A stretch of DNA of 64,000 nt, from contig NZ_AP022596.1 in assembly GCF_010731895.1 (NCBI RefSeq), positions 4,278,001-4,342,000 of the forward strand. Reading direction: 5' to 3'. The DNA comes from Mycolicibacterium helvum (lineage in GTDB: Bacteria; Actinomycetota; Actinomycetes; Mycobacteriales; Mycobacteriaceae). The position numbers and the translations under genes are program-made. The notes beneath the pieces are model-generated. The model worked only from the letters and a program-made list of their open reading frames with translations. It searched no databases and was not told where the DNA came from. Each line of letters begins with the position of its first letter. Positions within the stretch are counted from its first letter, which is position 1. Below are positions 10,851 through 64,000 of the stretch, one piece after another.

Positions 10851-11249
10851 TCAGTCACGGTCGTGGTGACAGACGGCTTCGAGCATCAAACCGAATGGGT
10901 CGAGCCAGAAGGTCGCGAAGTAGGGCGGCGGGTATTGCGGAAAGAACTGCGGCTCATGCACTACGTCCCCGCCGAGTCGTTGCACGAGACGATGGACTTC
11001 GTTGACCGCTGATCGTGATTTGACCATGAAAGCCAGGTGCTGCAGTCCGGTGCTCTCGCGCGCATAGCGACCGGGATCGGTGGCCGGGTAGAAGAACAGG
11101 TACGTCCCGGGCTTGCCTGCTGCGGGACGAAAGGCGAACTGGTCACCGTCGTCGAGGAACGGTTCAAACCCGAGAAGGGGCATCAGCGTTGTGTAGTAGA
11201 TCCGGGCTGTCGCTAGATCGGTGACGTTGATCCCCAGGTGTCCAAGCAT
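10851..11249 (-). CDS. VOC (glyoxalase/dioxygenase superfamily) protein
   Basis: 132 residues with two beta-alpha-beta-beta-beta units. Candidate metal ligands are His4 (LGHLGINVTDL), the His of LQHLAFMV and the Glu of MLEAVCHH near the C-terminus. Substrate-facing residues do not identify the reaction; the family includes glyoxalase I, fosfomycin resistance enzymes and extradiol dioxygenases. The C-terminal DPFGLMLEAV pattern is typical of small uncharacterised VOC proteins in actinobacteria. It is transcribed away from the glycosidase gene, sharing the ~170 bp between them. Confidence 0.82.
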   Translation of the reverse strand: MLGHLGINVTDLATARIYYTTLMPLLGFEPFLDDGDQFAFRPAAGKPGTYLFFYPATDPGRYARESTGLQHLAFMVKSRSAVNEVHRLVQRLGGDVVHEPQFFPQYPPPYFATFWLDPFGLMLEAVCHHDRD

Positions 11250-11417
11250 GAGCTATCGTGCAATCCGCCGCGATGGTGGTGCAACTGGCTAATAGCGCGT
11301 AGTTGCCCGCTTGGTCGAGGCTGCGCCTTCAGCCACCCCCGGTGCGACCGGGAAGACGGCGGTGCCGATGTGCGGAAACCACCTATGCAGCAGGTCGGGT
11401 CCCGTATACACAAATCT

Positions 11418-23503: not shown

Positions 23504-23513
23504 GGGGCCCACT

Positions 23514-28669: not shown

Positions 28670-29622
28670 GGACCGCTAAGAACGTCGCCTCGTTCGTCGC
28701 GTTCGCGGTGATCGTCGCCGTCACGTCGCTCTACATTGGCTCGTTCGGTCTGCGGCTGGGCCCACCCGAGCATCGCATCAACCTGTCGATGGCGGTGCCC
28801 GACGTGAAAGGTCTTGTGGTGGGTTCCAGCGTGCTGCTGCGTGGCGCGCCGATCGGTCAGATCACCGCGATCTCGGCGTCGGCGAGTGATGCCACCATCG
28901 ACTTCTACATCGATGGCGATCAGCGCATTCCGGTCGACAGCGATGTGCGGTTGGACAATCTGTCCGCGCTGGGCGAGGCCTACGTCGGCTTCATCCCGAG
29001 GGCCGATACCGGACCGATGCTGTCCGACGGACAGCGCATCGCCGCGGAGTCGATCACGGTGCCGCCGTCGATCTCTCAGCTGGCCACCAGCGTGGTCCGA
29101 GTGCTCAACCAGATGGATCCGGTGCAGCTCAAACGGATCCTCAACGAAGCCGACGCCGGCTTGCCGGACCCTGACGAGGTGTTGCCGAACCTGGCCAGGG
29201 CCAGTCTGCTGACCCGAAACATGTTGGTGGGCATGAACGGTAAGGGGCAGCAGGTACTAGCCAACTTCCAGACCTTGCTGCAGAACGCCGACTGGGTCGG
29301 GCCGGTACTGGCCGAGGTGGCGCCGTCGGTGCGGGCGCTGGGACCCAGTAGCTCACGCATCTTCAAAGGAATGATGAACACTGTTGCGTGGAATAACCCG
29401 GAGAACATGCGCCTCTTCCAGATCTTCCTGGCCAGGATCCAGGCATTTCTGGACACCAGGGGATCCGACCTCAAAGTCATCGGTAACGCGTTGCTGCCGC
29501 AGTTCACCGGTATCGGTGGGGCGTTGATGAATTTCGATACCGCGCAGATCCTGTCGAATGCTCTATCGGGCATACCGGAGGAAGGAGCGATCACCCTTCA
29601 TGTCACGATCCCCGATCAGTAG
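28666..29622 (+). CDS. mceF: MceF-type substrate-binding protein
   Basis: 318 residues. N-terminal helix ~5-27, MCE domain NLSMAVPDVKGLVVGSSVLLRG, APIGQI, then long helical region. It is the last mce gene and overlaps the mceE stop (GTGA at 28666). F-type members of some operons carry long C-terminal tails; this one ends shortly after the helical part. No MceG ATPase follows, as usual for mycobacteria where it is encoded elsewhere. Confidence 0.92.
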   Translation: MRTAKNVASFVAFAVIVAVTSLYIGSFGLRLGPPEHRINLSMAVPDVKGLVVGSSVLLRGAPIGQITAISASASDATIDFYIDGDQRIPVDSDVRLDNLSALGEAYVGFIPRADTGPMLSDGQRIAAESITVPPSISQLATSVVRVLNQMDPVQLKRILNEADAGLPDPDEVLPNLARASLLTRNMLVGMNGKGQQVLANFQTLLQNADWVGPVLAEVAPSVRALGPSSSRIFKGMMNTVAWNNPENMRLFQIFLARIQAFLDTRGSDLKVIGNALLPQFTGIGGALMNFDTAQILSNALSGIPEEGAITLHVTIPDQ

Positions 29623-44157: not shown

Positions 44158-45582
44158 TCAGCGGACGTACGCGTCCAGACCGGTGAGGAGCGCGGCGAGG
44201 CCCGCTTTGGCGTCGCTGAACAGCATGGCCGTCTTGGGGTTCGTATAGAGCTCATTGTCCACTCCGGCGTAGCCGTGGCCGAGGGAGCGTTTGATGACGA
44301 TCACGCTCTTGGCCGCATCGACGTCAAGGATGGGCATGCCGGAGACGGGGTTGCCGGGCCTGCGAGCCGCGGGGTTGGTGACGTCATTGGCGCCGACGAC
44401 CAAGACGACGTCGGTGCGGGCGAACTCGGGGTTGATCTCCTCGAGGTCTTTCATCTGCTCGTAGGGGGCGTTCGCTTCGGCGAGTAAGACATTCATCTGT
44501 CCGGGCATCCGCCCAGCGACCGGGTGGATGCCGTAGGTGACATCGACTCCGTGTTTAGTCAGTGCGGCTGCGAGTTCGACGACTTCGTGTTGGGCTTGCG
44601 CGGCGGCCAAGCCGTAGCCGGGCACGATCACAACCTTGCCGGCGTAGGCCAGTTGCAGGGCGGCATCGTCGACGGCGACCTCACGCACCGTCCCGGTCAC
44701 CGATACGGGCTGGCTGCCGGCGTCGTTGTCGCCGGTGCCGAATCCGCCGGCAATGATGCTGAGCAGGGGCCGGTTCATGGCATCGGCCATCAGCTTGGTG
44801 AGAATGCCGCCGGCAGCACCGACTAGAGCGCCGGCGATGATCAACGGTGTGCTGTCGATGACGAAGCCGGCCATCGCGACGGCGGTACCGGTGCAGGCGT
44901 TCAGCAGTGAGATGACAACCGGCATATCGGCGCCGCCGATGGGCAGGGTGAGAAGTACCCCCAGACCGAGCGCGGCCGCGGCGAGCGCGCACAACACCGC
45001 CACGCCGCCGTAGCCGCAGGTATAGGCGAGTCCGCTGGCCAGCGCCGCGGCGGCCAGCAGCAGATTGAGCGCGCGACCGCCGGGAAAGGTCAGTGGCTTG
45101 CCGGGAATGAGGCCGGCGAGCTTACCTCCGGCGATCAGCGAACCGGAGAAGGTGATACCGCCGATGAGCACGCCCAGAAATGTCGTCAGGGTGGTGTTGA
45201 CCGGCAATTGACTCAGCGGCAGCGATCCGGCGTGCTTGATCGCGTCACCGAATGCGACCAGCGCGGCCGCGCCGCCGCCGACTGCGTTGAACAGGCTGAC
45301 GAGTTGCGGCATCGCGGTCATCTTCACCCGACGTGCGGTGAGCAGCCCGGTCAGCCCGCCGCCGAGCAGCCCGCCGGACAGCACGAGCGCGGCGGTCGCG
45401 TTGATGACGTGGTCATCGGCGAGAACCGCGATCGTGGTTACGAAAGCGACGGCCATCCCGACCGCGGAGAGCTGGTTTCCGCGACGCGCCGAGGCCGGTG
45501 AGGTCATCAGGTGCAGACCGAGGATGAAGCAGGCCGCGGCAAGTAGGTACAGGACGTGGATCAGGGTGTGGAAGGTACTCAT
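44158..45582 (-). CDS. pntB: NAD(P) transhydrogenase beta subunit
   Basis: 474 residues. The N-terminal two-thirds are membrane helices (dII) and the C-terminal ~180 residues the NADP-binding dIII: VIVPGYGLAAAQAQHEV, GIHPVAGRMPGQMNVLLAEA, GANDVTNPAAR and IKRSLGHGYAGVDNELY. With PntAA and PntAB it couples proton flow to hydride transfer between NADH and NADP+. ATG 45582 overlaps the pntAB stop (ATGA). In this context it can balance NADH and NADPH when respiration is limited. Confidence 0.96.
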   Translation of the reverse strand: MSTFHTLIHVLYLLAAACFILGLHLMTSPASARRGNQLSAVGMAVAFVTTIAVLADDHVINATAALVLSGGLLGGGLTGLLTARRVKMTAMPQLVSLFNAVGGGAAALVAFGDAIKHAGSLPLSQLPVNTTLTTFLGVLIGGITFSGSLIAGGKLAGLIPGKPLTFPGGRALNLLLAAAALASGLAYTCGYGGVAVLCALAAAALGLGVLLTLPIGGADMPVVISLLNACTGTAVAMAGFVIDSTPLIIAGALVGAAGGILTKLMADAMNRPLLSIIAGGFGTGDNDAGSQPVSVTGTVREVAVDDAALQLAYAGKVVIVPGYGLAAAQAQHEVVELAAALTKHGVDVTYGIHPVAGRMPGQMNVLLAEANAPYEQMKDLEEINPEFARTDVVLVVGANDVTNPAARRPGNPVSGMPILDVDAAKSVIVIKRSLGHGYAGVDNELYTNPKTAMLFSDAKAGLAALLTGLDAYVR

Positions 45583-45893
45583 GACGTTTGGCTCGCAGTG
45601 GGCTTCGGCGCGCGACGGGGCCGGAACATCTGGAGCATGCGGTCGGTGACGACGTAACCGCCGACCACGTTCAACGCGGCGAACGCCGCCGACACCCCCA
45701 GTAGTAGGTAGCCGAGCGGGGTGTTGACCGTCGCGGCGAGCACCATCACACCGACAACGACGACGCCGTGGATCGCATTCGACCCCGACATGAGCGGCGT
45801 ATGCAGGGTGGCCGGAACCTTGCTGATCACCTCGAACCCGACAAATAGGCTCAGAACGAAGATCGTGATGTCGGCGAACAGTAGGGCTGTCAT
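45579..45893 (-). CDS. pntAB: NAD(P) transhydrogenase alpha-2 (membrane) subunit
   Basis: 104 residues with three helices (LFADITIFVLSLFVGFEVI, SNAIHGVVVVGVMVLAATV, YLLLGVSAAFAALNVVGGY). The TPLMSGSNAIHG segment is the family hallmark. Overlaps pntAA and pntB by four bases each, so the three are translationally coupled. Confidence 0.95.
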   Translation of the reverse strand: MTALLFADITIFVLSLFVGFEVISKVPATLHTPLMSGSNAIHGVVVVGVMVLAATVNTPLGYLLLGVSAAFAALNVVGGYVVTDRMLQMFRPRRAPKPTASQTS

Positions 45894-47059
45894 GCGCCCG
45901 CTCCTTCCGCGGTGGGTGGTTCGACCAACGCGCGTACCGCCGGGTGGATAACGTTGCCGTCGTGGGTGATGAGCACACCGGCAGTGATCGGGTCGGTGGG
46001 ATCTAGCGTGAGCCCGTCGTCGCCAACGAGGTGCGTCAGCAGTGCAACGATGTTGCGGGAGTAGGCCGTTGAGGCGGCTTTGGGCACGCCGGAGGGCAGG
46101 TTGCCGGCACCGATCACGGTGACACCGTTGTCGGTGATCATTGTCGTCTCGGGCAACGCGCCTTCGACATTGCCGCCGAACTCGTTCGCGGCGAGGTCGA
46201 CCACCACCGAACCGGGTCGCATTGCGCCAAGGGCGGCCGCGGAGACGAGCACCGGGGCGGCCCGGCCGGGTACCTGTGCGGTGGTGATCACGATGTCGAA
46301 CCCGGCGATTGCCGCGGCGAGGGCGAGCTGCTGAGCGTCCCGCTCGTCCTCGGTCAGCGCACGGGCGTAGCCCCCGTCGCCCGCCGCCGACACCGGGGCG
46401 GCGATATCAAGGAAGTTCGCACCAGTGGAGGCGACGTCGGCGCGAGCTGCGTCGCGGACGTCGTAGCCGGTGACGACCGCGCCGAGCCGGCGGGTGGTAC
46501 TGATCGCCTGCAACCCCGCGACCCCGGCGCCGATCACCAGGACCTGCGCGGGGCGAGTCGTGCCGGCGGCTGTCATGAACATCGGTAGATAGCCGCCGTA
46601 TGTGTCGGCCGCGACCAGGGCCGCCTTGTAGCCGGCGACATTGGCCTGTGAACTGAGCACGTCCATCGACTGTGCAGCGCTCAGCGTGCGAGGAAGACCG
46701 TCGAGGCTGATTGCGGTCACCTTGGCCTGAGCCAGACTGCGCGCCAGATCCGGGTTGAGGACAGGCGCCAGCAGCCCGATCAAGACTTGACCCGGACGCA
46801 GCAGGCCGACGGCGTCGGCGGCCGGCGGGTGGATGCAGACGATGATATCGGCCTGTGCGTACACCTCGTCCCGGGCGAGCGCGCGGGCGCCGGCCTCGGT
46901 GTAGTCGGAATCGGTGAACCACGCCGCGTTTCCGGCACCAGTCTCGACGATCACCTGGTGCCCGGCGGCGCGCAACCGGGCTGCGCCATCGGGGCTGAGC
47001 GCGACGCGCCGTTCCCCCGGGGCCGTCTCGGCGACGGCGCCCACGGTGTGCTCGGTCAT
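45890..47059 (-). CDS. pntAA: NAD(P) transhydrogenase alpha-1 (NAD-binding) subunit
   Basis: 389 residues, the soluble dI domain homologous to alanine dehydrogenase. Seen are the N-terminal AETAPGERRVALSPDGAARL, RAQSMD-like LSAAQSMDVLSSQANVAGYKA, Rossmann VLVIGAGVAGLQAISTTRRLGA and the DGG loop SAAGDGGYA. ATG 47059 is the family start; the open frame further upstream is not protein-like. A DosR-like candidate motif lies ~67-86 bases upstream. Confidence 0.95.
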   Translation of the reverse strand: MTEHTVGAVAETAPGERRVALSPDGAARLRAAGHQVIVETGAGNAAWFTDSDYTEAGARALARDEVYAQADIIVCIHPPAADAVGLLRPGQVLIGLLAPVLNPDLARSLAQAKVTAISLDGLPRTLSAAQSMDVLSSQANVAGYKAALVAADTYGGYLPMFMTAAGTTRPAQVLVIGAGVAGLQAISTTRRLGAVVTGYDVRDAARADVASTGANFLDIAAPVSAAGDGGYARALTEDERDAQQLALAAAIAGFDIVITTAQVPGRAAPVLVSAAALGAMRPGSVVVDLAANEFGGNVEGALPETTMITDNGVTVIGAGNLPSGVPKAASTAYSRNIVALLTHLVGDDGLTLDPTDPITAGVLITHDGNVIHPAVRALVEPPTAEGAGA

Positions 47060-47125
47060 CTCATCGGCTCCCGGGACCAGTTCGGAACTGGAAGCCTTGA
47101 CTAAACGCCGTCGTCGACCGCGGGG

Positions 47126-47145
47126 TAAGGGCCGAAGGGCCTTTA
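47126..47145 (-). promoter_or_regulatory. Candidate DosR/DevR-like box upstream of pntAA
   Basis: On the minus strand the site reads TAAAGGCCCTTCGGCCCTTA, a near-palindrome close to the DosR pattern GGGACTTTCGGCCCT (11-14 bases agree depending on the consensus used). It sits between the DHOD-like stop and pntAA. A weak call without scoring. Confidence 0.3.
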
Positions 47146-47150
47146 ACGGG

Positions 47151-48160
47151 TCACCAGGGACCGTAGGCGGCGGTGTCCGCGCTCTGGATCGTGCTGACGT
47201 AATCCGCGCGTTCGCGCGCCGTTCCGTCGATGTCCGCGGGGACGGCAAGCATCCCGCGCAGTTCGTCGACAGTCGTGAATCCCTTACGCCCCATCCATTC
47301 CCGCAGTCCATCGAGCAGGACGGCGGCGTACTCCGGGCTGTGGCGCAGCAGGGCGGACGCGGTCATCACCACATCGGCTCCGGCCAGTAGGTACTTGATC
47401 ACCTCAGTCGCACTCTCGACGCCGGTGGTCGCGGCGAGTGACGCGCCAACTTGGCTGCGCAGCAGTGCAATCCATGTGAGCGGCAGCCGACATTCCGCCG
47501 CGGTGGACAACGACGGCGTGCGTACCATGGTGAGGGTCTCCGGGTCGACGTCGGGCTGCAGGAACCGGTTGAACAGCACCAGCCCCTCGGCGCCGGCCGC
47601 GTCGAGGCGCCGCGCCATCTCGCCGGTCGCGCTGAAGTACGGGCTCAGCTTCACCGCCACAGGTACGGTCACCGAGTCCTTGACCCACGCCAGGATGTCG
47701 AGGTGTCGTTGTTCTACGTCGCGGCCGGTGGCGTGCGGATCGCCGGGCAGGGAGTAGATATTCAACTCGATCGCGGCCGCACCGGCATCCTGCATCGAGC
47801 GTGCGTAGCGGGCCCAGCTGCCGGGCGTAATGCCGTTGAGGCTGCCGATCACCGGAATCGTGACTGCGGCAGCTGCACGTTCGAGCAGGCTCAGATACCG
47901 GCGCGGGCCGTGGTCCTGCTCGGCGGTGCGCGGAAAGTAGGTCAGGGATTCGGCGAAGCTTTCAGTGCCAGCCTCGGCCAGTTGCGCGTTCTGCTCCGCC
48001 TCGCGCTGCAGCTGCTCTTCGAACAACGAATAGAGCACCACCGCGCCGACACCGCAATCAGCGAGCCGGCGCACGCCGTCGACAGTCTGCGACAGCGGCG
48101 AGGCCGAGGCGACCAGCGGATTGTTCAGGGTGATTCCGAGATAACGCGTCGACAGTTCCA

Positions 48161-48161
<1 letters not shown>
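47151..48161 (-). CDS. Dihydroorotate dehydrogenase-like flavoprotein
   Basis: 336 residues, FMN-type TIM barrel: LGITLNNPLVASASPLSQTV, IPVIGSLNGITPGSW, IELNIYSLPGDPHATGRD, VAVKLSPYFS and the phosphate loop ATTGVESATEVIKYLLAGAD. The Ser/Cys base region of true PyrD is not conserved; this is the DHOD-like class often found beside nifJ and GltD-like genes. ATG 48161 shares one base with the nifJ stop. It probably takes part in electron transfer rather than pyrimidine synthesis (inference from neighbours). Confidence 0.85.
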
Positions 48162-51738
<3,577 letters not shown>

Positions 51739-51742
<4 letters not shown>

Positions 51743-53418
51743 GTCGGTTCCGGGAACATGTCGATGGCGTGGACCGGGCATTGATCGAAGCAGACGGCAC
51801 AGCCCGTGCACTTGTCGTAGTCGAACCGGTACCCGTGCCCGACTCCGAGTTTGATCACCGCGTCCTCGGGGCATGCGCCGAGGCAGCCATCGCATTCGAA
51901 GCAGTTGCCGCACGAGAGGCAACGCCCCGCCTCGTAGGTCGCCTCCGCGGCCGACAAGCCGCCGACCACTTCCCGGAAACCCTTAACGGCGTCCACCGGT
52001 TCCAGTTCGGGCTGTTGACGTCGCTCGGAGTCGCCGAAGAACCACAGGTGCAGCATGTCGAACGTCGCCGTCGGGTGCTTGTCCGGGCGCGCGTCAGGAG
52101 CGCCGCGCAGCCAGGCATCGATGTGGTGGGCTGCCTTCTTCCCGTGTCCGACGCCGACGGTCACCGTCCGTTCACAGGGCACCATGTCGCCGCCGGCGAA
52201 TACCCCCGGGCAACCGGTCATCAGCGATTCCGAGACTCGCACGGTGCCATCGTGTTCGACCACCACGCCGGGCAGTGCCCGCATGAAGGCCGACTCGGTC
52301 TCCTGACCCAGCGCCATGATCAGGGTGTCGGCGGCCAGCGTCTCGAACCGCCCGGTCGGCCGCGGGTAACCCGAATCATCGAGTTCCATTGCCTCGACTT
52401 GCAATTCGGGGCCCTCGAAGGCGGTGATCGTCCGCAGCCAGTTGATCCGCACGCCTTCACGTTCGGCTTCCTCGGCCTCCTCCTCGTGAGCCGGCATCTG
52501 CTCCCGCGTGCGGCGGTAGACGATGACGGCGTCGTCGGCACCGAGCCGACGCGCCACGCGGGCAGCGTCCATCGCCGTGTTGCCGGCACCGTAGACCGCG
52601 ACATGCCTTCCGATCGAGGGCTTTTCGCCGGATGCGACGCTGCGCAGAAATGAGACCGCGTCGATCATGGTGCCGGCGTCAGTAGCCGGGATGTCGACAC
52701 GTTTGGCCAGGTGCGCGCCGACCGCGACGAACACCGCGTCGAAGTGGCCCTCGTCGCGCTCGGCGGCGAGGTCCTCGACCCGGTGCCCGCAGGTGAGCTG
52801 GACGCCCAGTGCGGCGATGCGGTCGAGCTCAACTTCGAGCACGTCGCGGGGCAGTCGGTAGTTCGGGATGCCGTAACGCATCATCCCACCGGGCACGGCG
52901 CCCGCGTCGCGGATCTCGACTTCGTGGCCGAGGCGTGCCAAATGGTAGGCCGCGGACAGCCCACTCGGTCCGGCGCCGACGATCAACACCCGCCGGCCGC
53001 TGCGCATCGGCGGCGGATCGAACATCCAGCCTTGCTCCCGCGCGAGGTCGCCGAGGAAACGCTCCACCGAATGAATCGATACTGCGCCGTCGAGATGTGC
53101 TCGGTTACAAACGGTTTCACATGGGTGATAGCAGACGCGTCCGTGGATTGCGGCAAAGGGATTGTCCGCGACGAGCAGACGCCAGGCCTGTTCGTGCCGA
53201 CCGGCCCTAGCATGGGCCAGCCAAGCCTGGATGTTCTCCCCGGCGGGGCAACCGGAGTTGCAGGGCGGCATCAAATCGACGTAGACGGGGCGGCGCGTGC
53301 GCACCGGTCCCGCCCGGGGACGACCATCCGTCAAGTCCGAGAGTCGCGTGACATCCTGCGGCGGGTCGGCAGTGTCTCGACCGGCACCAGTGCTTCTGGC
53401 GGTCTCGTCACCACTCAT
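51739..53418 (-). CDS. GltD-like FAD/NAD(P) oxidoreductase with C-terminal ferredoxin domain
   Basis: 559 residues. N-terminal Cys cluster (MPPCNSGCPAGENIQ, VCYHPCETVCNR) binds 4Fe-4S as in glutamate synthase small subunit and NfnB. FAD motif VLIVGAGPSGLSAAYHLARLG (~140), NAD(P) motif VAVYGAGNTAMDAARVARRLGA (~275) and FAD closing GVFAGGDMV. Extra C-terminal Cys clusters CLSCGNCFECDGCLGACP and CTGCAVCFDQCP bind two more Fe-S centres. It likely moves electrons between ferredoxin (reduced by NifJ) and NAD(P). First gene of the coupled GltD-nifJ-DHOD series. Confidence 0.92.
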
Positions 53419-53494
53419 TTCCTCACGATAGGCGCAGCAAGCGAATTCGGTGTGACTACGCTGTTTCAGGGGATACCGAAGCCCGGCTGTGAGC

Positions 53495-54298
53495 TCAGGT
53501 GGGGTTGTTCCGGGCGCGGGCGCGGCGCACGGCCTCGTCGACGATGCGTTGGGCCACCTCCGTCAGCTTGCGGTGTTCGGATTGGCTGATCGCCCGCAGC
53601 TGTGAGAACGCCTCATCGGCGCTGCGCCCGGACCGACCTCGGATCAGGCCGATCGCCTGATCGATCACCGCTCGCGACGACAGGGCAGTCTGCAGTTGGC
53701 CGGCCAGCGCCACCGCCTGCGCGAGAACCTGGGCGTTGTGTACCGCGACGGCGGCAGGTCTGGCGAACAGTTCGCCGAGTTCGGCGGCATGCGCGTCGAA
53801 GACGTCTTTGCCGTGGGCGTAAACGTTGATCGCCCCGACAACCTGACCGGGCAGCAGCAGGGGCAGCGATAACGCGCTGTGCACTCCAAGGCGGCCCACG
53901 CGAGGGCCGAACCGAGGCCACATCATCTCCCCACCCAACGACCCGGAGCGCACGGTGCGCCGTTCCAACGCCGCGGTGATACACGGTCCTTCTCGAACTG
54001 TCACATACTGGATTTCGTCGATCTCGGCGACAAAGGGAGCGCTCGCCGCCAACGCCTCCACCATGTTGTCGACCCGGTCGACCCGCAACAAGGTCACCCC
54101 GGCACCTTCGGCACCTGGTATCGCGTGAACAGCAAAAGCCGCAACAGCGGCCAGCAGTTCGGGCAATCCCAGGCTCCCCGCAACCAGACCCGCGAGATCG
54201 TCGATCCCGGACCGCAGGTCGGCGGCGTCCGCGCTGGCCTGCTCCGGAGTCAGCGACCCGCTCGATGAGCCGGGGCCGTCCTCGGTCAACTTGGTCAT
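53495..54298 (-). CDS. GAF-ANTAR domain regulator
   Basis: 267 residues. GAF sensor at ~50-185 (AGVTLLRVDRVDNM, YVTVREGPCITAALERRTV, SALSLPLLLPGQVVGAINVYA) and ANTAR RNA-binding domain at ~200-257 (LSSRAVIDQAIGLIRGRSGRSADEAFSQLRAIS). ANTAR proteins act by antitermination at paired RNA hairpins. It sits between the anaerobic operon and the STAS/arcD genes, so either could be a target. Downstream is the GltD-like gene, 76 bases away, possibly the same transcript. Confidence 0.92.
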   Translation of the reverse strand: MTKLTEDGPGSSSGSLTPEQASADAADLRSGIDDLAGLVAGSLGLPELLAAVAAFAVHAIPGAEGAGVTLLRVDRVDNMVEALAASAPFVAEIDEIQYVTVREGPCITAALERRTVRSGSLGGEMMWPRFGPRVGRLGVHSALSLPLLLPGQVVGAINVYAHGKDVFDAHAAELGELFARPAAVAVHNAQVLAQAVALAGQLQTALSSRAVIDQAIGLIRGRSGRSADEAFSQLRAISQSEHRKLTEVAQRIVDEAVRRARARNNPT

Positions 54299-54609
54299 GG
54301 GCGGTACCTGTGCTCACATCCTGCCGGCGCCCGCAAGCGGACCGGGGCCGTGCGATCTACCCGCGGCGTCCCGCCACGTGACAGTCGCCATCTTAGGCCG
54401 GTCGAGTCGACCGAGATGCGCCGATCGCCTTCGGGAAGTCACGGTAATTCCCTGGTTGGCGAACCAGCCATCACAACGACCGTTCGGAACGGTCGATCGG
54501 GGTGTAGCGTCATCGGTGGCTGAGAATTGCAGCTGGTCCGGGATGAGTTCGGCTGTCCGCCGCGGAACTCGAGGAGCGTCAGCTCCGAACCCCACGCGCC
54601 GGTGATCGT
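54299..54609. other. Divergent regulatory region with tandem hairpins
   Basis: Around 310 bases between the GAF-ANTAR and STAS genes. Two dyads follow each other: CTGGTT-GGCG-AACCAG (54452-54467) and CGACCGTT-CGG-AACGGTCG (54477-54495). If transcribed toward the STAS gene they make adjacent hairpins. No protein-like frame is seen. Confidence 0.5.
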
Positions 54610-55113
54610 GTGCACGTCTGGATCACCATGACCCCTTCTCGTGTCCACCCCGCTCAGACATCCGGGGTCACTCCCTTGTCCATGGCCTCGCTGAGTGGCC
54701 ATCGAAATGGTCACCGCGCCCGGTTGGCATGCCGCTGGCCGACGTCGTCGGTTGCCGTTATCAGCGCCCACGGCGAACTCGACGCCTGGAACGTCGGCAG
54801 CCTGACCGACCACGCGGTTGCGCACGCGACACGTGGCCACGGGCTTGTCCTGGATCTGAGCGACTTGGAATTCTTTGGCACCGAGGGCTTCTCGGCGCTG
54901 CACCGGGTGTCGGTGTCGTGCGCGAGGGTTGGAGCAGCCTGGGCAATGGTGGCTGGTGTCGCCGCCACCCGAGTGCTGCGGATCTGCGACCCGCAGTGCT
55001 TGCTGCCTGCCGCCCGCACCGTCGATGCGGCGATGGCCACTTTCCCCAGACCACCATCACATCGACTCCAACTCATTGCGAAGACACCGCAACGGTCGCC
55101 GGACCCAACCTAA
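54610..55113 (+). CDS. STAS-domain (anti-sigma antagonist-like) protein
   Basis: 167 residues with start uncertain (GTG 54610; ATG 54628 or 54682 are alternatives). The STAS core runs from ~50 to 150: SVAVISAHGELDAWNVGSL, LVLDLSDLEFFGTEGFSALH (phospho-site region; Thr in place of the usual Ser) and a helix-strand C-terminus. Such proteins relieve anti-sigma inhibition or act as stress modules. It sits 16 bases before arcD. Partner unknown; the PP2C protein at 538-1749 is too distant to assume. Confidence 0.8.
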   Translation: MHVWITMTPSRVHPAQTSGVTPLSMASLSGHRNGHRARLACRWPTSSVAVISAHGELDAWNVGSLTDHAVAHATRGHGLVLDLSDLEFFGTEGFSALHRVSVSCARVGAAWAMVAGVAATRVLRICDPQCLLPAARTVDAAMATFPRPPSHRLQLIAKTPQRSPDPT

Positions 55114-55129
55114 ATCGAAGGTGAGCCAG

Positions 55130-56665
55130 ATGAACCAGTTAGTGGGGGCTGAGCCGAGGCCGAACGTTAATGGGGCGGGTGAGTCACCTCCGACGGCGGC
55201 GAGCTCGCCGCGCGACCAAGACAAATCCCGCGCCCTGGGTTTGACGTCGGCGACCGGGCTCGTCGTGGGCAGCATTGTCGGCACCGGGGTTTTCACCATG
55301 CCGGCGGTGCTTGCCGGTGCAGGCACGATGGGCATCTTTGTGTTGGCCGTGATCGCGGTGGGCGCAATGCTGTTAGCGGTCTTGTTCGGCCAGCTCACCC
55401 GCCGAGTGCCCAACAGCGACGGTGGTTTGTATGCCTATGCCCGTCACGAGTTCGGCGACTTCGCCGGCTACCTTGTGGGCTGGTGCTACTGGATCCAGAC
55501 CTGGGCCGGTAATGCGGCCATCGTGGCGTCCTGGGTGTTCTACGTTGATGCCCTCTTCGGCCTCGACAACCCCGGCGGACTGGCGAACTGGGGGATCGCA
55601 CTGGTCGGCTTGTGGGTCCCCGCGATCGTGAACCTGACCGGGGCTCGCCAGATGGCCTGGTTCCAGAACATCACTGTAGTGCTGAAGTTCCTGCCACTGC
55701 TGTTCATCGGCGTCATCGGCTGGTTCTTCGTCGAGAAGGCCAACTTCGGGGCCTTCAACGCCTCCGGGGGCAGCCTGTACAGCGCCATCGGCATCGCCGC
55801 CGGGGTGGCGCTGTTCTCTTTCATCGGCGTGGAGGCGGCGGCGATTACGGCCAAGCGAGTGAAGAACCCGCGCGTGAACGTCGGTCGCGCGTCGTTGATC
55901 GGTACCGCGGCCAGTGCCCTGCTGTACGTGCTGGTGACGGCGGCGGTGATGGGACTGGTGCCGCACGACACCCTGACCGCCACCGGGGCTCCGTTCGTGG
56001 ACGCGTTCCAGGCGATGTTCTCCCAGAACGGGTGGGCGGGAAAGTTCATCGCCGCGATCGCGGTGATCTCGGGGATCGGTGCGCTCAACGGCTGGACCCT
56101 GATCGTCACCGAAACCTCGCGTGCCATCGCTCAAGACGACCTGTTCCCGCGGCCCTTCACCTGGACCGACCGCAACGGGACCGCCTGGTTCGGCATCGTG
56201 GTGGGCACCGTGTTGCCCTCGCTGCTCATGCTGTGGCGTTACACGTCCAGCTCTGGCCTGACAGTCTTCACCTATTTGGTCGACCTGACCGTGGTGACGG
56301 TGGCGATTCCCTACTTCTTCTCCGCGATCGCCCAGCTCACCTACCTGCTGTCTCGTCGGCGCCGGGTCGAAGGCTGGCGGCTGGCCCGCGATCTCACCGT
56401 CGCGGGGGTGAGCATCCTGTTCTCGATGTGGGTGACCTTCGCCGCCGGCTACCAGGTCGTCTATCAGGCCTTGGTGGTCATCCTTGCCGGGCTCGTGCTG
56501 TACGCATTCTTGAATGCCCGTCGACAGCGTGCCGGCGAGGCTGCCGAGCCGGTCGATCTTCCCAGCGACCAGCGCGCGGAGCGACCCTTCCGCGTCGAGG
56601 CGACCGGCAAGAGTCGGAAGTTCGGCACCGACATCAACGCCATCAAAGAGAAGGAACGGCTGTGA
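55130..56665 (+). CDS. arcD: APC-family arginine/ornithine antiporter (ArcD-like)
   Basis: 511 residues with twelve helices. The APC entry motif [21 protein letters not shown] (helix 1) and helix 6 [21 protein letters not shown] are typical of basic amino acid/polyamine antiporters. ATG 55130 follows GAAGG at good spacing; GTG 55121 in frame is an alternative. The stop overlaps arcA (GTGA), strongly supporting arginine/ornithine exchange for the arginine deiminase route, which needs no energy for uptake. Confidence 0.9.
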
Positions 56666-57882
56666 CGTTCGCTGTGAACTCTGAGATCGGCCAGCTTCGC
56701 CAGGCCGTCCTCCACCGCCCTGGCCTTGAGCTGGCCAGGCTCACCCCGGAGAACATCGGGGCGCTGTTGTTCGACGACATCGTCTGGGCATCCAAGGCCA
56801 AGGAGGAGCACGACGCCTTCGCTCAGGCGTTGCGCGACAAAGGTGTTCAGGTCCACTACTTCGGTGAACTGCTGGCCCAGACGCTCGAGCTCAGCGAGGG
56901 CCGCGATTTCGTGCTCGACCGGCTGTGCACCCCGCAGCTTCTTGGTCCCTCTCTTGCCGGCCCGGTGCGTCGGCTCTTCGAGGACCTCGACGGCCCTAAC
57001 TTGGCCGAGTTCCTCGTGGGCGGGGTACTGAAGGCCGACCTGCACCCGCAGCGACCGCAGAGCCTGACCTGGGACATGCTCAAGGCCGACGACTTCGTCC
57101 TGACTCCGCTGCCCAATCACCTTTTCCAGCGGGACAATTCGAGCTGGATTTACGGCGGCGTGACCATCAATCCGATGGCGAAACCCGCCCGCCAACGAGA
57201 GTCGCTGCATACTCGGGCGATCTATCGCTTCCACCCGCTGTTCGCCGACGCCGACTTCGTGACGTACTACGGCGCTGAAGACTGCAACTATCAGCCGGCG
57301 ACTCTGGAAGGCGGAGACATCCACGTGATCGGCCACGGGGCAGTCCTGATCGGCATGGGAGAGCGGACGACTCCGATGGCCATCGAGACGCTCGCGCACG
57401 CCATGTTCGACGCGGGGCAGGCGACAACTGTGGTAGCCATTGAACTGCCGCACAGCCACGCCTTTATGCACCTCGACACAGTCATGTCGATGGTCGACAA
57501 GGACACCTTCGTGCTCTACCCCTACTTCGATCGCCACCTGCGGAGCTGGACCATGACGGCCGCCGACGAACCCGGCCGGCTCAGCGTGACCCGCAATCAC
57601 AGCCTGTGGGACACCCTCGCCGAGATCCTCGAGGTTGACGAGATCGCGGTCCTCACCACCGACGAGGACATCCGCGCCGCTGAACGCGAGCAATGGGACG
57701 ACGGCACAAACTATTTGGCCGTCGCACCCGGGGTGGTGATGGGCTACGAGCGCAATGTGGCCACCAACACCATGTTGCGCAAACACGGCATCGAGGTCGT
57801 GACAATCGCCGGCAGCGAGCTCGGTCGCGGCCGTGGCGGACCGCGGTGCATGACGTGCCCGATCGTCCGTGATGCTGGCTAG
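56662..57882 (+). CDS. arcA: Arginine deiminase
   Basis: 406 residues, normal for ADI. It converts arginine to citrulline and ammonia. Key parts are [37 protein letters not shown] (substrate Asp/Arg region), [12 protein letters not shown] with the catalytic Glu, [18 protein letters not shown] with catalytic His, and nucleophile Cys396 in [16 protein letters not shown] 56662 overlaps the arcD stop. The 3' end overlaps the start of the sensor kinase gene. With OTC and carbamate kinase on the other arm the route yields ATP from arginine without respiration. Confidence 0.96.
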
Positions 57883-59668
57883 CCAGCAGGTCCCGCGTTG
57901 CCGCGATCCGGTCGTGGTTCGGCGGGGTGAGAAATATTGCGGCAACGGGGGCTTCTCGGCGGTAGCCGGGCTCCCCGTCTGCTGCCTGGGCGCCGGCACG
58001 GCCGAAAATCGCGGCTTCGCCAGCACACAGCGATGCGACGCGCCGCACGTCGTGCCGTCTCACGAACAACCCGACGAATTGACGGCAGCCCGCGCCCCAA
58101 TGGAGCGACGCCTCAGCGTCATCGTCGATATCGGCTCCGATCTCGATCTCGATGCCACCCTGCACCGGGTGGTGACAGCGGCGATGGAGCTCACCCGAGC
58201 CGGCCGTGGCACGCTCGGGGTCTGCGGTCCAGATGGCACCACAATCTCGTTTCGGCAACTGCCGGCCGGCAAAGGTTCTATCGGTGCGCCCGGGAACCCG
58301 CCTGAGTCGTTGAGCCGCGACCAATTGAGTGAAGACCGGGCTGCGGCGGGCATCTCCGATCATCATCCACTGATGCGCACCGTCCTCAGTGTTCCGATCA
58401 TGATTCGGAAAACCAGATTCGCCACGCTGTACTTGACCGAGAATCAGTCCGGATGCGGGTTCACGGAGTTCGATGAAATCGATGCTCGGGCAGTGGCTTC
58501 CGCGGCAGCGGTGGCTATCGATAATGCCCAACTGTTCGACCGCGCGACCGTGAGAGCCGCGTGGATCGAAGCCGGCCTCGCCATCACCACCGCCATCTTG
58601 TCGAGCGTGGAACCTCACCCGCGGCCGCTGCAACTGATCGCCGACCGCGCCTGCGCGTTGACCGACGCCGAGCAGGCCATCGTGCTCGTCCCCGACGACG
58701 CCGACCGCATCGCGCAACAGGTCGACAGCTTGGTCGTGTCCACTGCGGTTGGCCGACATGCAGGCGACCTGATCGGTCAGCTAGTTCCGGTAGCACAGTC
58801 GACCACTGGTGAAGTGTTCCGCTCCGGCGCAGCGGTGATCACCGAAACGTTTCGGCACCCGATCCAGGCATTCACCGATGTCGGTCGACGCCCCGCGATC
58901 GTCATGCCATTGCGTTGTCAGGACACGGTTATCGGTGTCGTCGTCGTGGCACGCAGCCCGGATCAACCGGTCTTCGACGCTCGTGACCTCGAGCTGATGA
59001 GCGACTTCGCCGGCCATGCTGCGGCCGCGCTGACGCTGGCAGACGCCCGTGCGCTGGCGGTCCTCACCGATCGCGAGCGGATCGCGCACAACCTGCACGA
59101 CCTCGTCATCCAGCGGGTGTTCGCCGTTGGGATGGACGTGCAGGGCACCGTTGCCCGCTCGCACTCGCCCGAGGTGACCGACCGGCTCAACCGGACGCTC
59201 TCAGAGCTCCAGGCCATCATCGAAGACATCCGAACCGCGATCTTCGGCCTTCTTCAGTCTCCGGTCGGGCAGACCAGCTCGTTTCGTCAACGGATACAGC
59301 AATTGGTAGCTGCCATGACCGACAACCGGGACATCACAACAACTTTGCAGATATCCGGACCACTCACTGTCATCGCTGACGTCGTGGCCGAACATGCCGA
59401 AGCGGTCATCATGGAAGCCATCAGCAATGCCATCCGTCACTCTGGTGCGTCGGGCCTGATCGTGAAGGTTGCCGTTGGCGATGAGCTCGCGATCGACATC
59501 ACCGACAACGGCAACGGCATCCCGGCCGACAATCGACGCCACAGCGGTCTGGCGAACATGCGCCGACGCGCCGAACAGGTCGGCGGACACTGCACGATCG
59601 GGTCGGCACTTGCAGGTGGCACTCACCTTCACTGGACAGCACCCATGGCTGACCCGCCCGGCCGCTGA
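57872..59668 (+). CDS. DevS/DosT-like GAF-GAF histidine kinase
   Basis: 598 residues from ATG 57872 (GTG 57869, GTG 58052 and ATG 58099 are alternatives; the first ~75 residues are Cys-rich and unlike DevS). Two GAF domains (~85-220, ~235-400) align by eye with Dev[17 protein letters not shown] and [28 protein letters not shown], where the HP-x-MRT His is the haem ligand position in DevS/DosT. Then HisKA_3 [22 protein letters not shown] with the phospho-His, N-box [11 protein letters not shown]-box [10 protein letters not shown]. Likely a redox or gas (O2/NO/CO) sensor. No partner regulator gene is adjacent. Confidence 0.88.
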
Positions 59669-59873
59669 AGCGTTCACCGCTCGACGCGGTGCACGTGATC
59701 GCGCGCGGTCCACACTGAAGAAGACCTCTGGGCGGCGTCCCGATAAATCCGCCGTCCCCGTGAGAGCCGACGACCAGCAGGTCTTCTGCACTGACGCTGT
59801 CGAGCAGTACCTGGGCGGCTTTCCCTTTAACTGTCTCCTGCGTGATTCGGACCGGATCCGCGGCGTAGACGGT
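59669..59873 (-). pseudogene. Universal stress protein C-terminal remnant
   Basis: Directly after the gap stop, and in the same minus-strand frame, the sequence reads TVYAADPVRITQETVKGKAA then QVLLDSVSAEDLLVVGSHGD and GGFIG, the C-terminal USP pattern (ADLLVVGSxGxGGF). The following nucleotide-binding tail is degraded. No N-terminal half, start codon or ribosome site is present. Reads as a truncated USP gene, the kind common in DosR-controlled regions. Confidence 0.6.
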
Positions 59874-60914
<1,041 letters not shown>

Positions 60915-61024
60915 CTATCAAGCAAATCGGCACTTTCGTCGCGCGTGTCTGTCGCGCGCGCCCTCTCAATTCTCACCGCCCGGGACGCCGGGTAGTAGAG
61001 GACAACGTCCCCGGACATCCAGGG

Positions 61025-61339
61025 GGCGGTACCACGGCCGAGGGTATCCACCTCGCGGCGATCGCCGGCAGCGTCGACCTGATGCAGCGCTGCTTCACCG
61101 GGCTGGAAACCCGTTCCGGCCGGATCATTCTGTCCCCGCACTGGCCAGAAAAACTGGGTGTGTTGGCAGTTCCGATTCACTATCGCGGCCTACATCTGCA
61201 CCTTCGGGTGCACCTTCGGGTCAGCGGCAAGGGTGTGATCATCAGCGTGGATCCGCGCGAGACCGGCGGAGCTGGGATTCGGCACGTTGCAAGTCGACAC
61301 CTTGTCGCGGTGTGCCGGTCAGTAGTGGCGTGTACTTAG
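61025..61339 (+). pseudogene. Glycoside hydrolase family 65 C-terminal remnant
   Basis: The plus-strand frame GGTTAEGIHLAAIAGSVDLM QRCFTGLETRSG, then RIILSPHWPEKL and IHYRGLHLHLRVHLRVSGKG, matches the C-terminus of GH65 (kojibiose/maltose/trehalose phosphorylase-like) proteins. No start or catalytic domain precedes it. A 12-base tandem duplication (CACCTTCGGGTG/C) doubles the HLRV strand. The frame closes at TAG 61337-61339, overlapping the arcC stop. A relic of a larger gene now replaced or deleted. Confidence 0.65.
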
Positions 61340-62274
61340 TTGCGATTGCGGGACGGCTCCCGTCTTAGACGAATGGTGGTGCCGGCGGTGCCCGCGAACA
61401 AGGCTGGCGCGTCATCCAGAGCCCCGATTGTTGCCGGCTTTCCGGTCGCGGAGACGAAGCGGCGGCAGGCCTCGGTCTTGGGCCCCATCGACCCGGCCGG
61501 GAACTGCATGTTGGCCAGCTCGTGCAGATCGACCTCTGTCAGTTGCGCGGATTGTGGCGTGCCGTAATTGATCATGACGCCCGCGACGTCGGTCAGGACC
61601 ATCAGGCGCTGAGCGCCGACGGCGATGCCAAGCAATGCCGCGACGTAATCCTTGTCCACAACCGCTTCGACACCTCTTAGCGCACCGGCGGTGTCTTCGG
61701 CCACGGGGGCGCCGCCACCGCCGCCGGCAATCACCACAATTCCGCTGTCGAGCAGTGCGGTGATGGAGTGTTGCTCGATGATGCGGTGCGGTTCGGGTGA
61801 GGCCACGACCCGGCGCCACCGACCGCCGTCGGCGGCGATCGTCCAGCCGTGCACGTCGGCCAACTCCCGGGCCCGCTCCCGCGGATAACCGGGGCCGACA
61901 AACTTGGTCGGAGCGCTGAACGCCGGGTCGGCTGAATCGACCAGCGTTTGGGTGACCATGGCCACGATCGGCTTGCCCACCCCCGCATTGCGCAGGGCCT
62001 GCGCGAGCCAGTAGCCGATCATTCCCTGGGTCTGCGCGACGAGGTCATCCAGCGGGTAGGGGCAGTTCAGGGCAGGGTCGGTTTCGCTTTCCAACGCCAG
62101 CAAGCCGACCTGGGGGCCGTTGCCGTGGCAGATGAGTACATCGTGGCTGGCCGCCAACGGCGCAATCGCCTCGGCGGCGACGCGCACGTGTTTGAGCTGG
62201 ATGCCGGCGTCCGGGCTCTCCCCGCGCGCAAGCAGAGCGTTGCCCCCCAACGCGATGACGATTCGCACCGTCAC
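61336..62274 (-). CDS. arcC: Carbamate kinase
   Basis: 312 residues, normal for the family. It makes ATP from carbamoyl phosphate and ADP, the energy-yielding last step of arginine deiminase fermentation. Motifs: [10 protein letters not shown] near the start, [37 protein letters not shown] and the C-terminal [19 protein letters not shown] 62274 overlaps the OTC stop (GTGA); GTG 62268 is an alternative. Confidence 0.95.
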
Positions 62275-63281
62275 GCACCGAATGCGTGGGTCATGACCGC
62301 CTTGATGGTGGGCATCCGGTTCGCCGCCTGGTCGAACACGATCGAGGTGGGCGATTCGAAGACGTCCTGGGTGACCTCTGCACCAACGAGTTGGAATTGG
62401 TCGCGCAGTCGGCGCCCGAGATCGGTATCGGCGTTGTGAATCGACGGCAGGCAATGCATGAACTTCGTGTCGGACCGTCCTGTTGCCTGCATGAGCTGCT
62501 CGGTCACCCGATACGGCAGCAACAGCGGTACTCGTCTGGCCCACTCCTCGGTGGACTCGCCCATACTGACCCAGACGTCGGTGTAGACGAAATCGACACC
62601 GCCAACCCCAGTCTCGACGTCGTCGGTGACCAACAGGCGGGCACCGCTGCCGGCGGCCAGCCGGTGGGCGACGTCAACGACGTCGCGAGGTGGCCACAGC
62701 TCCCGCGGTGCGGCGATCCGAACATCCAGCCCGAGCAACGCGCCGGTGACCAATAACGAGCGGGCGACATTATTGCGGCCGTCGCCAAGGAAGCAGTACG
62801 CGATCTGCTCCAGCGGTCCTCGATGATGCTCGGTCATCGTCATGATGTCGGCGAGCATCTGAGTGGGGTGCCACTCGTTGGTGAGCCCGTTCCACACCGG
62901 CACCCCAGCGTCGTCGGCAAGCTCTTCGACAGAGGCCTGGGTGAAGCCGCGGAACGCGATACCGTCGAACATCCGACCCAACACCCGGCCAGTGTCGGTG
63001 ATGGACTCCTCCTTGCCGATGTGGGAGCCGTCGGGTCCGAGGTACGTCACGTGCGCCCCCTGATCATGGGCGGCGACCTCGAATGCGCATCGCGTGCGGG
63101 TGGAAGCCTTTTCGAAGATCAACGCGAAATTCCTGCCCGTGAGTCTCGGGACCTCTGACCCGCTCTGTTTATCGCGTTTGAGCTCGGCCGCCAGGTCGAG
63201 CAAGTCGAGGAACGCGCGCTTGTCCAGATCCAGCTCCTTCAGTAGGGAGCCGGGGTGTCGGCTTGTCGTCAGTGCTGTCAT
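62271..63281 (-). CDS. arcB: Ornithine carbamoyltransferase (probably catabolic)
   Basis: 336 residues. Carbamoyl phosphate loop [25 protein letters not shown], and the ornithine motif [10 protein letters not shown] are intact. The length and context with carbamate kinase match catabolic (arcB) enzymes that phosphorolyse citrulline, rather than the biosynthetic argF normally found in the arg operon. Translationally coupled to arcC. Confidence 0.92.
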
Positions 63282-63644
63282 ACCGGGAATGCCTCAGGGT
63301 TGGGGTGGGCACGCGATCTCACCGGAAAGTCCAGTACGGCTTGGCTATTGGCGGTGGACGGCCAAGATGAGATTTGATACCCGAATGTGTCCTGGGCGGT
63401 GAGCGCATCGCTCCCGGGGCCGGGGCGCACCGCGCGCAATCGAACCCGTTCCAAGCCGGCTGGTTTCAGCACCTCTTAGCCAACTCCCTTGCGTGCCAAT
63501 AGTCAACCGAGGCGGCGCCAGCCGGCAGACCTACGGAGGGTTCTGCGGTCACGCCAGAGAAACCGCAGCTGCGAGCGATCCCGCTGGTAGCGTCGAGTCC
63601 AGAGATGGCGGTGGGCTCACGACATCCGTGCTGAAGGAGCTCTT
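63282..63644. other. Divergent promoter region of arcB and enolase genes
   Basis: About 360 bases. A weak DosR-like half site (minus strand TGGACTTTCCGG, 63322-63333) is ~45 bases before the arcB start. A ribosome site GAAGGAG (63632-63638) serves the enolase gene. No protein-like frame. Confidence 0.4.
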
Positions 63645-64000
63645 ATGTCTCTGTGTATTTCGTCGATGGTGGCGATCGAGATCCTCGATTCCCGCGGCCG
63701 TCCAACCCTTCGTGTGCATGCGACGTTGGCTGACGGGCGCAGCGTGGCATCGGGGGTGCCCTCTGGGGCGTCAACCGGGAGCCGAGAGGCGCTCGAGCTG
63801 CGCGACCACGATGAGAACCGGTATTCGGGACTCGGTGTGCAGCAGGCGGTCGCGCACGTCAACGGGCCGATTGCGGATGCGGTGACGGGTCGTCCGTTCG
63901 CCTCGCTCGACGAGGTCGACGACACCCTTCGCGGGCTGGACGGCACTGCGGACAAGTCGCGGTTGGGCGCCAACGCGATAGTGGGCGCGTCGATGGCCGC
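63645..64000 (+). CDS. eno: Enolase, N-terminal part (runs off window)
   Basis: 118 codons are visible. The N-terminal capping domain reads AIEILDSRGRPTLRVHATLA, SGVPSGASTGSREALELRD, RYSGLGVQQAVAHVNGPIAD and LDGTADKSRLGANAIVGASM, all standard for enolase. GAAGGAG precedes ATG 63645. The first residues (MSLCISSMVA) are unlike the usual mycobacterial start, suggesting a second enolase in addition to the housekeeping one. It makes phosphoenolpyruvate, the step that feeds the pyruvate used by NifJ. Confidence 0.93.
   Translation, partial: MSLCISSMVAIEILDSRGRPTLRVHATLADGRSVASGVPSGASTGSREALELRDHDENRYSGLGVQQAVAHVNGPIADAVTGRPFASLDEVDDTLRGLDGTADKSRLGANAIVGASMA

Follow-up and report, generated by a model that had tools for sequence, protein, structure and literature searches.

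A pyruvate:ferredoxin oxidoreductase cassette and an arginine deiminase module beside a DevS-like kinase gene in Mycolicibacterium helvum

Results

Gene content of the island

In this study, we analysed a stretch of 64,000 nucleotides (the window) from the genome of Mycolicibacterium helvum (G000 in our numbering), which sits within a single 6.4-Mb contig. The part from 44158 to 64000 had been predicted to hold a pyruvate:ferredoxin oxidoreductase (PFOR) with redox partners, a transhydrogenase, the arginine deiminase (ADI) pathway, glyceraldehyde-3-phosphate dehydrogenase (GAPDH), enolase and a DevS-like sensor. Profile searches and open reading frames (ORFs) bore this gene content out: every gene so named is open and lies inside 44158..64000, except that the enolase gene overruns the window end. 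On the minus strand, in the order of transcription, are the genes for a GAF-ANTAR regulator (53495..54298; PF03861 and GAF_2), a GltD-like Fe-S flavoprotein (51739..53418), a NifJ-type PFOR (48161..51922), a dihydroorotate dehydrogenase (DHOD)-like FMN-type protein (47151..48164) and the transhydrogenase subunits PntAa (45890..47311), PntAb (45579..45893) and PntB (44158..45588). The plus strand carries the genes for a STAS-domain protein (54610..55113; PF01740; 72% identical to its relative in genome G241), an APC antiporter (55130..56665), ADI (arcA, 56662..57882) and a DevS/DosT-like histidine kinase (57869..59668). Beyond these, the genes for ornithine carbamoyltransferase (OTC; arcB, 62271..63281), carbamate kinase (arcC, 61336..62265) and GAPDH (59874..60890) are on the minus strand, and that for enolase is on the plus strand (63645..64000 in the window, and to 64919 in extended coordinates, so that 0.9 kb lies past the window end). 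A type IIIA H+ P-type ATPase gene follows just beyond the window end; this gene, the GAF-ANTAR gene and the STAS gene had not been listed in the original prediction.

The PFOR cassette and the transhydrogenase

The PFOR scores 1643 bits against TIGR02176 over residues 64-1238 (cut-off 911), has the full-length single-chain NifJ-type domain order and is matched over residues 62-1240 by the solved PFORs 6cin, 7plm and 1b0p. Its translation contains CIQCGNCSFVCP, CTGCGLCVEACP, CAGCGETPYLK and GDGWAYDIG, motifs that we take to be the ligands of three [4Fe-4S] clusters and the thiamine pyrophosphate (TPP) motif. The likely start of the PFOR gene, at 51742, overlaps the stop of the GltD-like gene by four bases, and the antiporter and ADI genes overlap in the same way; judged from coordinates and translation with the likely starts assumed, both overlaps argue for co-translation. 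The GltD-like protein (NF009410, 765 bits; cut-off 516) is composed of Fer4_20, Pyr_redox_2 and a C-terminal [4Fe-4S] domain (Fer4), and is predicted to link ferredoxin to NAD(P)+. The DHOD-like gene adjoins the PFOR stop, and its product scores 456 bits against NF005741 (cut-off 303). In three proteins of 562-571 aa (P0026, P0076 and P0119), a DHOD-like protein is joined to a PF02775 domain, presumably the TPP domain type of PFOR. These may be natural fusions or assembly artefacts; if natural, they would back a partnership of PFOR and DHOD.

PntAa, with a likely start at about 47050, scores 356 bits against NF006942 (cut-off 383), and its AlaDh_PNT_N and AlaDh_PNT_C domains are above their cut-offs. 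The 104-aa ORF that lies between pntAa and pntB and overlaps both was named pntAb, the small membrane subunit, from its position and length rather than from a profile search. PntB reaches 559 bits against PF02233 (cut-off 31.7), yet merely 399 against NF006974 (cut-off 689); it is a second genomic copy, 50% identical to the PntB encoded at 2157982. The enolase (TIGR01060, 511 bits; cut-off 300) is likewise a second isoform, and shares 54.5% identity with the other genomic enolase. The GAPDH scores 417 bits against TIGR01534 (cut-off 367).

The arginine deiminase pathway and the DevS-like kinase

All four functions of the ADI pathway had been claimed for the island. Its three enzymes were recognised, each scoring above at least one curated cut-off and below another: ADI (NF002381, 515 bits against a cut-off of 414; TIGR01078, 461 against 489), carbamate kinase (NF009008, 389 against 361; TIGR00746, 328 against 358) and OTC (TIGR00658, 378 against 281). 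The top raw scores of OTC come from NF003286 and NF002470, both below their own cut-offs; we take these to be models of catabolic OTC, and the enzyme is likely of this type. ADI aligns with the solved ADI 1rxx over its full length. The motifs RDN, EGGD, HLDT and CMTC of ADI, STRTR and HCLP of OTC and SCTTNC of GAPDH, all presumably functional, are kept in the translations; the claim that the motif sets are intact thus stood for each set checked (PFOR, ADI, OTC, GAPDH and the kinase). The antiporter is an APC transporter that falls below all the listed antiporter cut-offs (best TIGR00905, 279 bits against 409), and the fourth function therefore stands less firmly: we infer that its substrates are arginine and ornithine (the ArcD role).

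Two further ADI genes were found in the genome, 41% and 45% identical to the window ADI, with no match to OTC or carbamate kinase in the 20 kb around each, as well as a weak fourth ADI-family match at 1297000 (E 2.7e-4). Hence, among the ADI places found, that of the window alone has the full enzyme set.

The kinase has the architecture GAF-GAF-HisKA_3-HATPase, the second GAF, HisKA_3 and HATPase being recognised by profile and the first GAF by structure match only. It matches solved DevS/DosT domains, as expected of the DevS-like sensor that had been predicted, and has the phospho-acceptor motif LHD. When its first GAF domain (GAF-A) is aligned to DosT (2vzw), with a gap of about 13 residues, an HH pair (HHPLMRT) and a Tyr (LYLTE) are found at the haem site, the Tyr 22 residues after the second His; we take these to be the counterparts of the haem residues H147 and Y169 of DosT. 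By sequence, the kinase thus belongs with DevS/DosT, and it is predicted to sense O2, NO or CO through haem. The position of its gene in the same run as ADI suggests that gas sensing is directly coupled to the use of arginine.

Distribution of the two modules in the genus

The relatives were sampled as 396 genomes of the genus, the M. helvum genome included, and an earlier subset of 198, likewise including it. PFOR is present in 21 of the 198 genomes and 44 of the 396. Any ADI homologue (E <= 1e-30) was found in 176 of the 198, and a close one (at least 88% identity) in three. At 62% identity or more, ADI is found in six of the 396: M. helvum itself, G241 (94%), G159 (90%), G024 (88%), and G355 and G366 (62% each). 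PFOR accompanies it only in M. helvum and G159, and in the latter on a different contig; G024 and G241 are not among the 44 PFOR carriers. In G090, ADI and PFOR are 56 kb apart. Among the best 80 matches in GTDB r220, the named PFOR relatives include Ca. M. methanotrophicum (88%) and M. attenuatum (75%). A few genomes have a divergent second copy of PFOR, with 53-57% identity to that of the window, at G165:C8 (locus L077), G091:C50 (L078) and G230:C1 near 1.04 Mb; L077 and L078 have PFOR and DHOD with no GltD match.

Stretches of 20 kb (some shorter at contig ends) around PFOR were read by tblastn in 34 of the 43 other PFOR genomes, leaving the second-copy loci L077 and L078 out of the counts. 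GltD and PFOR were found at all 34 loci and DHOD at 33, the remaining locus stopping at a contig end. The commonest further neighbours were phosphoenolpyruvate (PEP) synthase (28 loci), an OtsB1-like trehalose phosphatase/GH65 protein (21), a WS/DGAT acyltransferase (17) and NiFe hydrogenase subunits (8 each); GAPDH was found at five loci, GAF-ANTAR at two (one at 32% identity), ADI and carbamate kinase at one each, and Pnt and enolase at none. The GAPDH at L061, L062, L067 and L197 is 83-90% identical to the window copy and that at L076 68%; in G090, an 88% identical GAPDH lies about 10 kb further on. The genomes with a GAPDH of 83-90% identity near PFOR are thus G165, G160, G067, G342 and G090. 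In G336 (L200), OTC, ADI and an antiporter of a different ADI branch (45%) lie about 3 kb from the DHOD-like gene.

Three further observations were made at these loci. A lone carbamate kinase (50%) lies about 6 kb from the cassette in G044 (L063:1061-1996), a genome with no ADI match. At L061, L193 and L195, genes resembling HoxEF, HoxU and the small and large hydrogenase subunits follow the PFOR cassette on the same strand, in an apparent pyruvate-to-hydrogen operon. At L069, L070, L071, L201, L203 and L204, MerR, Hsp20 and a PAS-ANTAR regulator lie near PFOR, the ANTAR protein being different from the GAF-ANTAR protein of the window.

Comparison of the ADI loci

Twenty-one ADI loci were compared, a non-random sample of 18 chosen from the best matches plus G241, G355 and G366. 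All four ADI functions are present at 18 of them; L079 (G159) has no antiporter match, and L091 and L093 have neither OTC nor carbamate kinase. An antiporter relative (27-91% identity) is near ADI at 20 of the 21 loci, a P-type ATPase at seven (five of them distant, 27-33%) and a DevS-like kinase within the stretch at four (G037, G082, G241 and G366).

The closest counterpart is in G241, which shares the window order of band7, H+-ATPase, OTC, carbamate kinase, DevS-like kinase (74%), ADI, antiporter, STAS, GAF-ANTAR and CDF. Additional ORFs of G241 separate carbamate kinase from the DevS-like kinase, and a STAS match is found between that kinase and ADI. Three elements of the window are missing: the PFOR-PntAB block, whose place between GAF-ANTAR and CDF is taken by a 204-aa ORF, the GAPDH gene that in the window lies between the genes for the DevS-like kinase and carbamate kinase, and the enolase gene that lies between those for OTC and the ATPase. 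The DNA of the two genomes aligns upstream of OTC (249 of 337 bases) and from STAS to GAF-ANTAR (282 of 360); past CDF they diverge, and some of the genes found there in the window are on the opposite side in G241. The whole 20.1-kb contig C106 of G024 carries band7, GAF-ANTAR, OTC, carbamate kinase, ADI and the antiporter, with no match to PFOR, Pnt, GAPDH, enolase, the DevS-like kinase or the H+-ATPase. The island of G159 comprises band7, GAF-ANTAR, H+-ATPase, OTC, carbamate kinase and ADI, with no DevS-like match. GAF-ANTAR is thus an anchor common to both modules in relatives: it is near ADI in G241, G024 and G159 and beside GltD in G054, where it directly precedes GltD-PFOR-DHOD (85/92/89/88% identity in this order) with band7 alongside and no ADI in the stretch read.

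In a tree built from rpoB of 23 chosen genomes, the topology was ((G000,G024),G241), with both joins at 100/99. Since the PFOR block is missing in these two nearest rpoB relatives tested, which have the ADI module, its later addition in the window lineage is the shortest account, and by parsimony the same holds for GAPDH and enolase, the relatives being compared at this place rather than genome-wide. An older ADI/GAF-ANTAR island would then have been extended at three separate places, by PFOR-PntAB, by GAPDH and by enolase. Recombination at the GAF-ANTAR anchor may have brought in the PFOR part, or parts may have been lost in some lineages. A recent arrival of foreign DNA found no support: the GC content of the blocks is 64.6-67.7%, and no 12-base direct repeats are present at the ends of the three blocks. 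In G159:C2, at 18-33 kb (L250 and L079), a Pnt copy 60% identical to that of the window, the nearest to the window PntB in the 198 genomes, lies 12 kb from ADI; PntAB may accordingly be a component of the ADI island and not a partner of PFOR.

These comparisons go against the original picture of a single conserved island: PFOR and ADI are apart in nearly all the relatives examined and form one island only in M. helvum, and a neighbourhood in one genome says little. Scattering of the genes in all relatives had been named as what would refute the prediction; for the pairing of PFOR with ADI this is nearly what was found, with G336 as one independent exception.

Elsewhere in the window, a PE_PGRS-type protein is in keeping with a mycobacterium, and two features lie on the plus strand. 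At 11238-13940, a PGRS repeat region is fused to a GH5 cellulase domain; at 21660-29622, a long same-strand run of genes for MlaE- and MlaD-domain proteins resembles an mce operon.

Discussion

Two modules of hypoxia type are joined in this island beside a DevS-like kinase gene, and we consider it on balance probable that they serve an anoxia programme in which ATP would be drawn from arginine and the electrons of pyruvate would pass to ferredoxin and NAD(P)H. This reading rests on the gene content, the intact motifs, the finding that the PFOR and ADI modules mostly occur apart, and the absence of PFOR from G024 and G241. The DevS-like haem kinase would sense low O2 (or NO/CO). The antiporter would exchange arginine for ornithine, and ADI, OTC and carbamate kinase would yield ornithine, CO2, NH3 and one ATP per arginine, which the adjoining H+ P-type ATPase may spend on the proton gradient or on pH. 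Pyruvate would be oxidised by PFOR, giving acetyl-CoA and reduced ferredoxin, whose electrons the GltD-like protein, together with the DHOD-like one, would hand to NAD(P), and the extra PntAB would balance NADH and NADPH; the GAPDH and second enolase of the island could supply the pyruvate. The hypoxic use, the function of the sensor, the electron path, the direction of PFOR and the benefit to the cell are all what we infer from sequence. That the enzymes are of the fermentative type, as originally stated, agrees with the neighbours of the cassette elsewhere in the genus, since PEP synthase and NiFe hydrogenase are, according to PMC2799521, of types induced by hypoxia in M. smegmatis.

A number of results weigh against this reading. 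PFOR, GAPDH and enolase are reversible enzymes. The ORFs scanned near the DevS-like kinase did not include a response regulator, and the four closest ADI genomes have such a kinase in the island only in M. helvum and G241. A DevS-like kinase is found in none of the 34 PFOR stretches; Ca. M. methanotrophicum (L104) has one of 36% identity some 8 kb ahead of GltD, just beyond the counted stretch. Several usual partners of PFOR are 3.8 Mb off in the M. helvum genome, at 0.49-0.51 Mb (L210 and L211), where a WS/DGAT (55%), a P-type ATPase (30%), a PEP synthase (40-43%), a DevS-like kinase (39-42%) and an OtsB1-like protein (62%) form what is likely a DosR-type cluster. About 0.1 cases of ADI near PFOR would be expected by chance (a rough estimate from 20 kb in 6 Mb, 34 loci and one arc operon per genome), and the single case of G336 is therefore suggestive only. 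The adjacency of GAF-ANTAR, GltD and PFOR in G054 also means that the polarity of the gain is not watertight. Finally, DosR boxes were sought with a consensus, a loose or simple core and a weighted 20-base motif, with reversed or permuted motifs as controls. The consensus gave one site at three mismatches in the window where 3.3 were expected, none of six promoter regions of the window scored clearly above 200 permuted motifs (at the best one, upstream of GAPDH, 29 of the 200 were as good), and at a score of 18.5 the weighted motif gave 38 matches in the 34 PFOR loci plus the window, where 12 permuted motifs averaged 76.

Other DosR searches gave mixed results. The loose core matched 21 times in the window against 46 expected, the one exact match being within the OTC gene. 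Genome-wide, the consensus gave 14 matches with no more than two mismatches and its reversed control 25; a DevS paralogue at 3.30 Mb lies some 0.7 kb from one of the two best genomic matches. For the simple core, 29 matches were counted in the 34 PFOR stretches, as opposed to 8 for its reversed control. At 11 divergent WS/DGAT-GltD promoters, the best scores averaged 17.5, compared with 15.69 for permuted motifs, and 3 of the 200 controls did as well; this figure overstates the evidence because the sites share ancestry and represent few kinds. At the other 23 PFOR loci, the scores did not differ from the controls (59 of 200 as good). Some relatives may thus use DosR for the PFOR cassette. For the window, a single DosR-controlled regulon is unsupported, and the predicted hypoxic control of an oxygen-limited programme gained no backing, there being no DosR-like box clearly above controls at its promoters. 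The GAF-ANTAR protein and the DevS-like kinase are candidates for local regulators. A search for an ANTAR target RNA gave no Rfam match at the gathering score bar one tRNA, although no check was made that Rfam includes a family of this type.

The separateness of PFOR and ADI in nearly all the relatives examined would also be expected if the two were coincidental neighbours, neither co-regulated nor co-used, that had come to a band7/GAF-ANTAR region acting as an insertion hotspot for accessory operons. G054, with PFOR beside GAF-ANTAR and band7 and no ADI in the stretch read, fits this account, as do G241, G024 and G159, with ADI at this place and no PFOR beside it. However, three separate additions, PFOR-PntAB, GAPDH and enolase, all of central metabolism or redox, came to one island, the GAPDH is of the PFOR-associated type, and ADI is close to PFOR in G336 as well; we regard mere coincidence as somewhat unlikely. 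The ADI part might, on another account, serve acid resistance or the use of arginine as a source of nitrogen or carbon rather than anoxic ATP formation. The ADI of another bacterium responds to acid stress, according to PMC11172107, an H+ P-type ATPase adjoins the ADI part, and the two other ADI genes of M. helvum have no OTC or carbamate kinase match within 20 kb. Yet the island includes carbamate kinase and a likely catabolic OTC, which would generate ATP, and the antiporter-ADI run contains the gene for a DevS-like sensor; in our view this account is decidedly unlikely.

A different alternative concerns the direction of PFOR. Acting as a pyruvate synthase, it would join CO2 to acetyl-CoA derived from fatty acids, using ferredoxin reduced by H2 or NADPH, to give pyruvate; PEP synthase would then make PEP, from which enolase and GAPDH in reverse would lead on to sugars or trehalose. 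The company of PFOR in the genus suits such a role, with PEP synthase at 28 of the 34 loci, OtsB1-like/GH65 at 21 and hydrogenase at eight, and the GAPDH and enolase isoforms of the window are reversible. Only one PEP synthase was found in the M. helvum genome, however; it lies 3.8 Mb from the island and shares 43% identity with the probe, which came from another species. Pyruvate oxidation is also the better-known use of NifJ-type enzymes. Although the sequence evidence leaves the direction unfixed between oxidation and synthesis, synthesis appears to us unlikely.

Mycobacteria are usually called strictly oxygen-dependent. It has long been asked how they survive when oxygen is absent and whether any of them can live by fermentation. 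The PFOR cassette with its recurring partners in about 11% of the sampled species, together with the contrast between M. helvum and G024/G241, makes this question testable in culture. A bolder version of the anoxia programme would see here a self-contained fermentation island under a haem sensor, with ATP from arginine, ferredoxin from PFOR, a transhydrogenase and a private lower-glycolysis branch, for energy conservation and perhaps anoxic growth, and, given the PFOR cassettes that lie with PEP synthase and in some cases with hydrogenase, a recurring, overlooked anaerobic lifestyle in about one in nine mycobacterial species; this we hold to be very improbable.

Each of the enzymes is of a known kind. 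Their combination, its modular origin and the neighbourhood of PFOR, PEP synthase, OtsB1 and hydrogenase were not found described; a NifJ-type PFOR with an ADI locus in mycobacteria likewise was not met in the open-licence literature, searched by title and the start of the abstract. The available text of a paper on the DosR set of M. avium contains neither 'arginine' nor 'transhydrogenase', and 'ferredoxin' only in the title of a reference (PMC11876180). In M. smegmatis, genes for PEP synthase, a cation P-type ATPase and a NiFe hydrogenase, which cluster near DevR/DevS, are induced by hypoxia, and the cells turn to ferredoxin-dependent enzymes, including a putative POR or KOR gene pair, msmeg_4645-4646 (PMC2799521). 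The island, counting the H+-ATPase just past the window end, shares with this DevR/DosR-type cluster, msmeg_3926-3955, the themes of DevS, a P-type ATPase and ferredoxin metabolism (PMC2799521). The window differs in that no hydrogenase or PEP synthase was recognised among the window ORFs scanned, and in having a NifJ-type PFOR and ADI, whereas the pyruvate/ketoglutarate:ferredoxin enzyme of M. smegmatis is encoded by a gene pair and the word arginine is absent from the main text of that paper (PMC2799521).

Like the arcDABC operon, the window has genes for an antiporter, ADI, OTC and carbamate kinase; unlike that gene order, known for example from Pseudomonas aeruginosa, they form two opposed units, with the DevS-like kinase gene after ADI and GAPDH downstream of carbamate kinase. 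Among solved chains, the GltD-like half of the cassette resembles the Nfn-type chains of NfnAB and dihydropyrimidine dehydrogenase (DPD), and the DHOD-like half resembles, weakly, the DPD and DHOD chains. In contrast to NfnAB and DPD, the cassette has no PyrK-like partner recognised among the ORFs scanned, and its [4Fe-4S] C-terminal domain is carried by the GltD-like protein, the activity being a predicted one. With the NifJ-type PFOR cassettes of its own genus, the window shares the GltD-PFOR-DHOD trio, which is present at 33 of the 34 other loci; it stands apart from the stretches read at all 34, where no Pnt was seen, in that PntAB follows the cassette.

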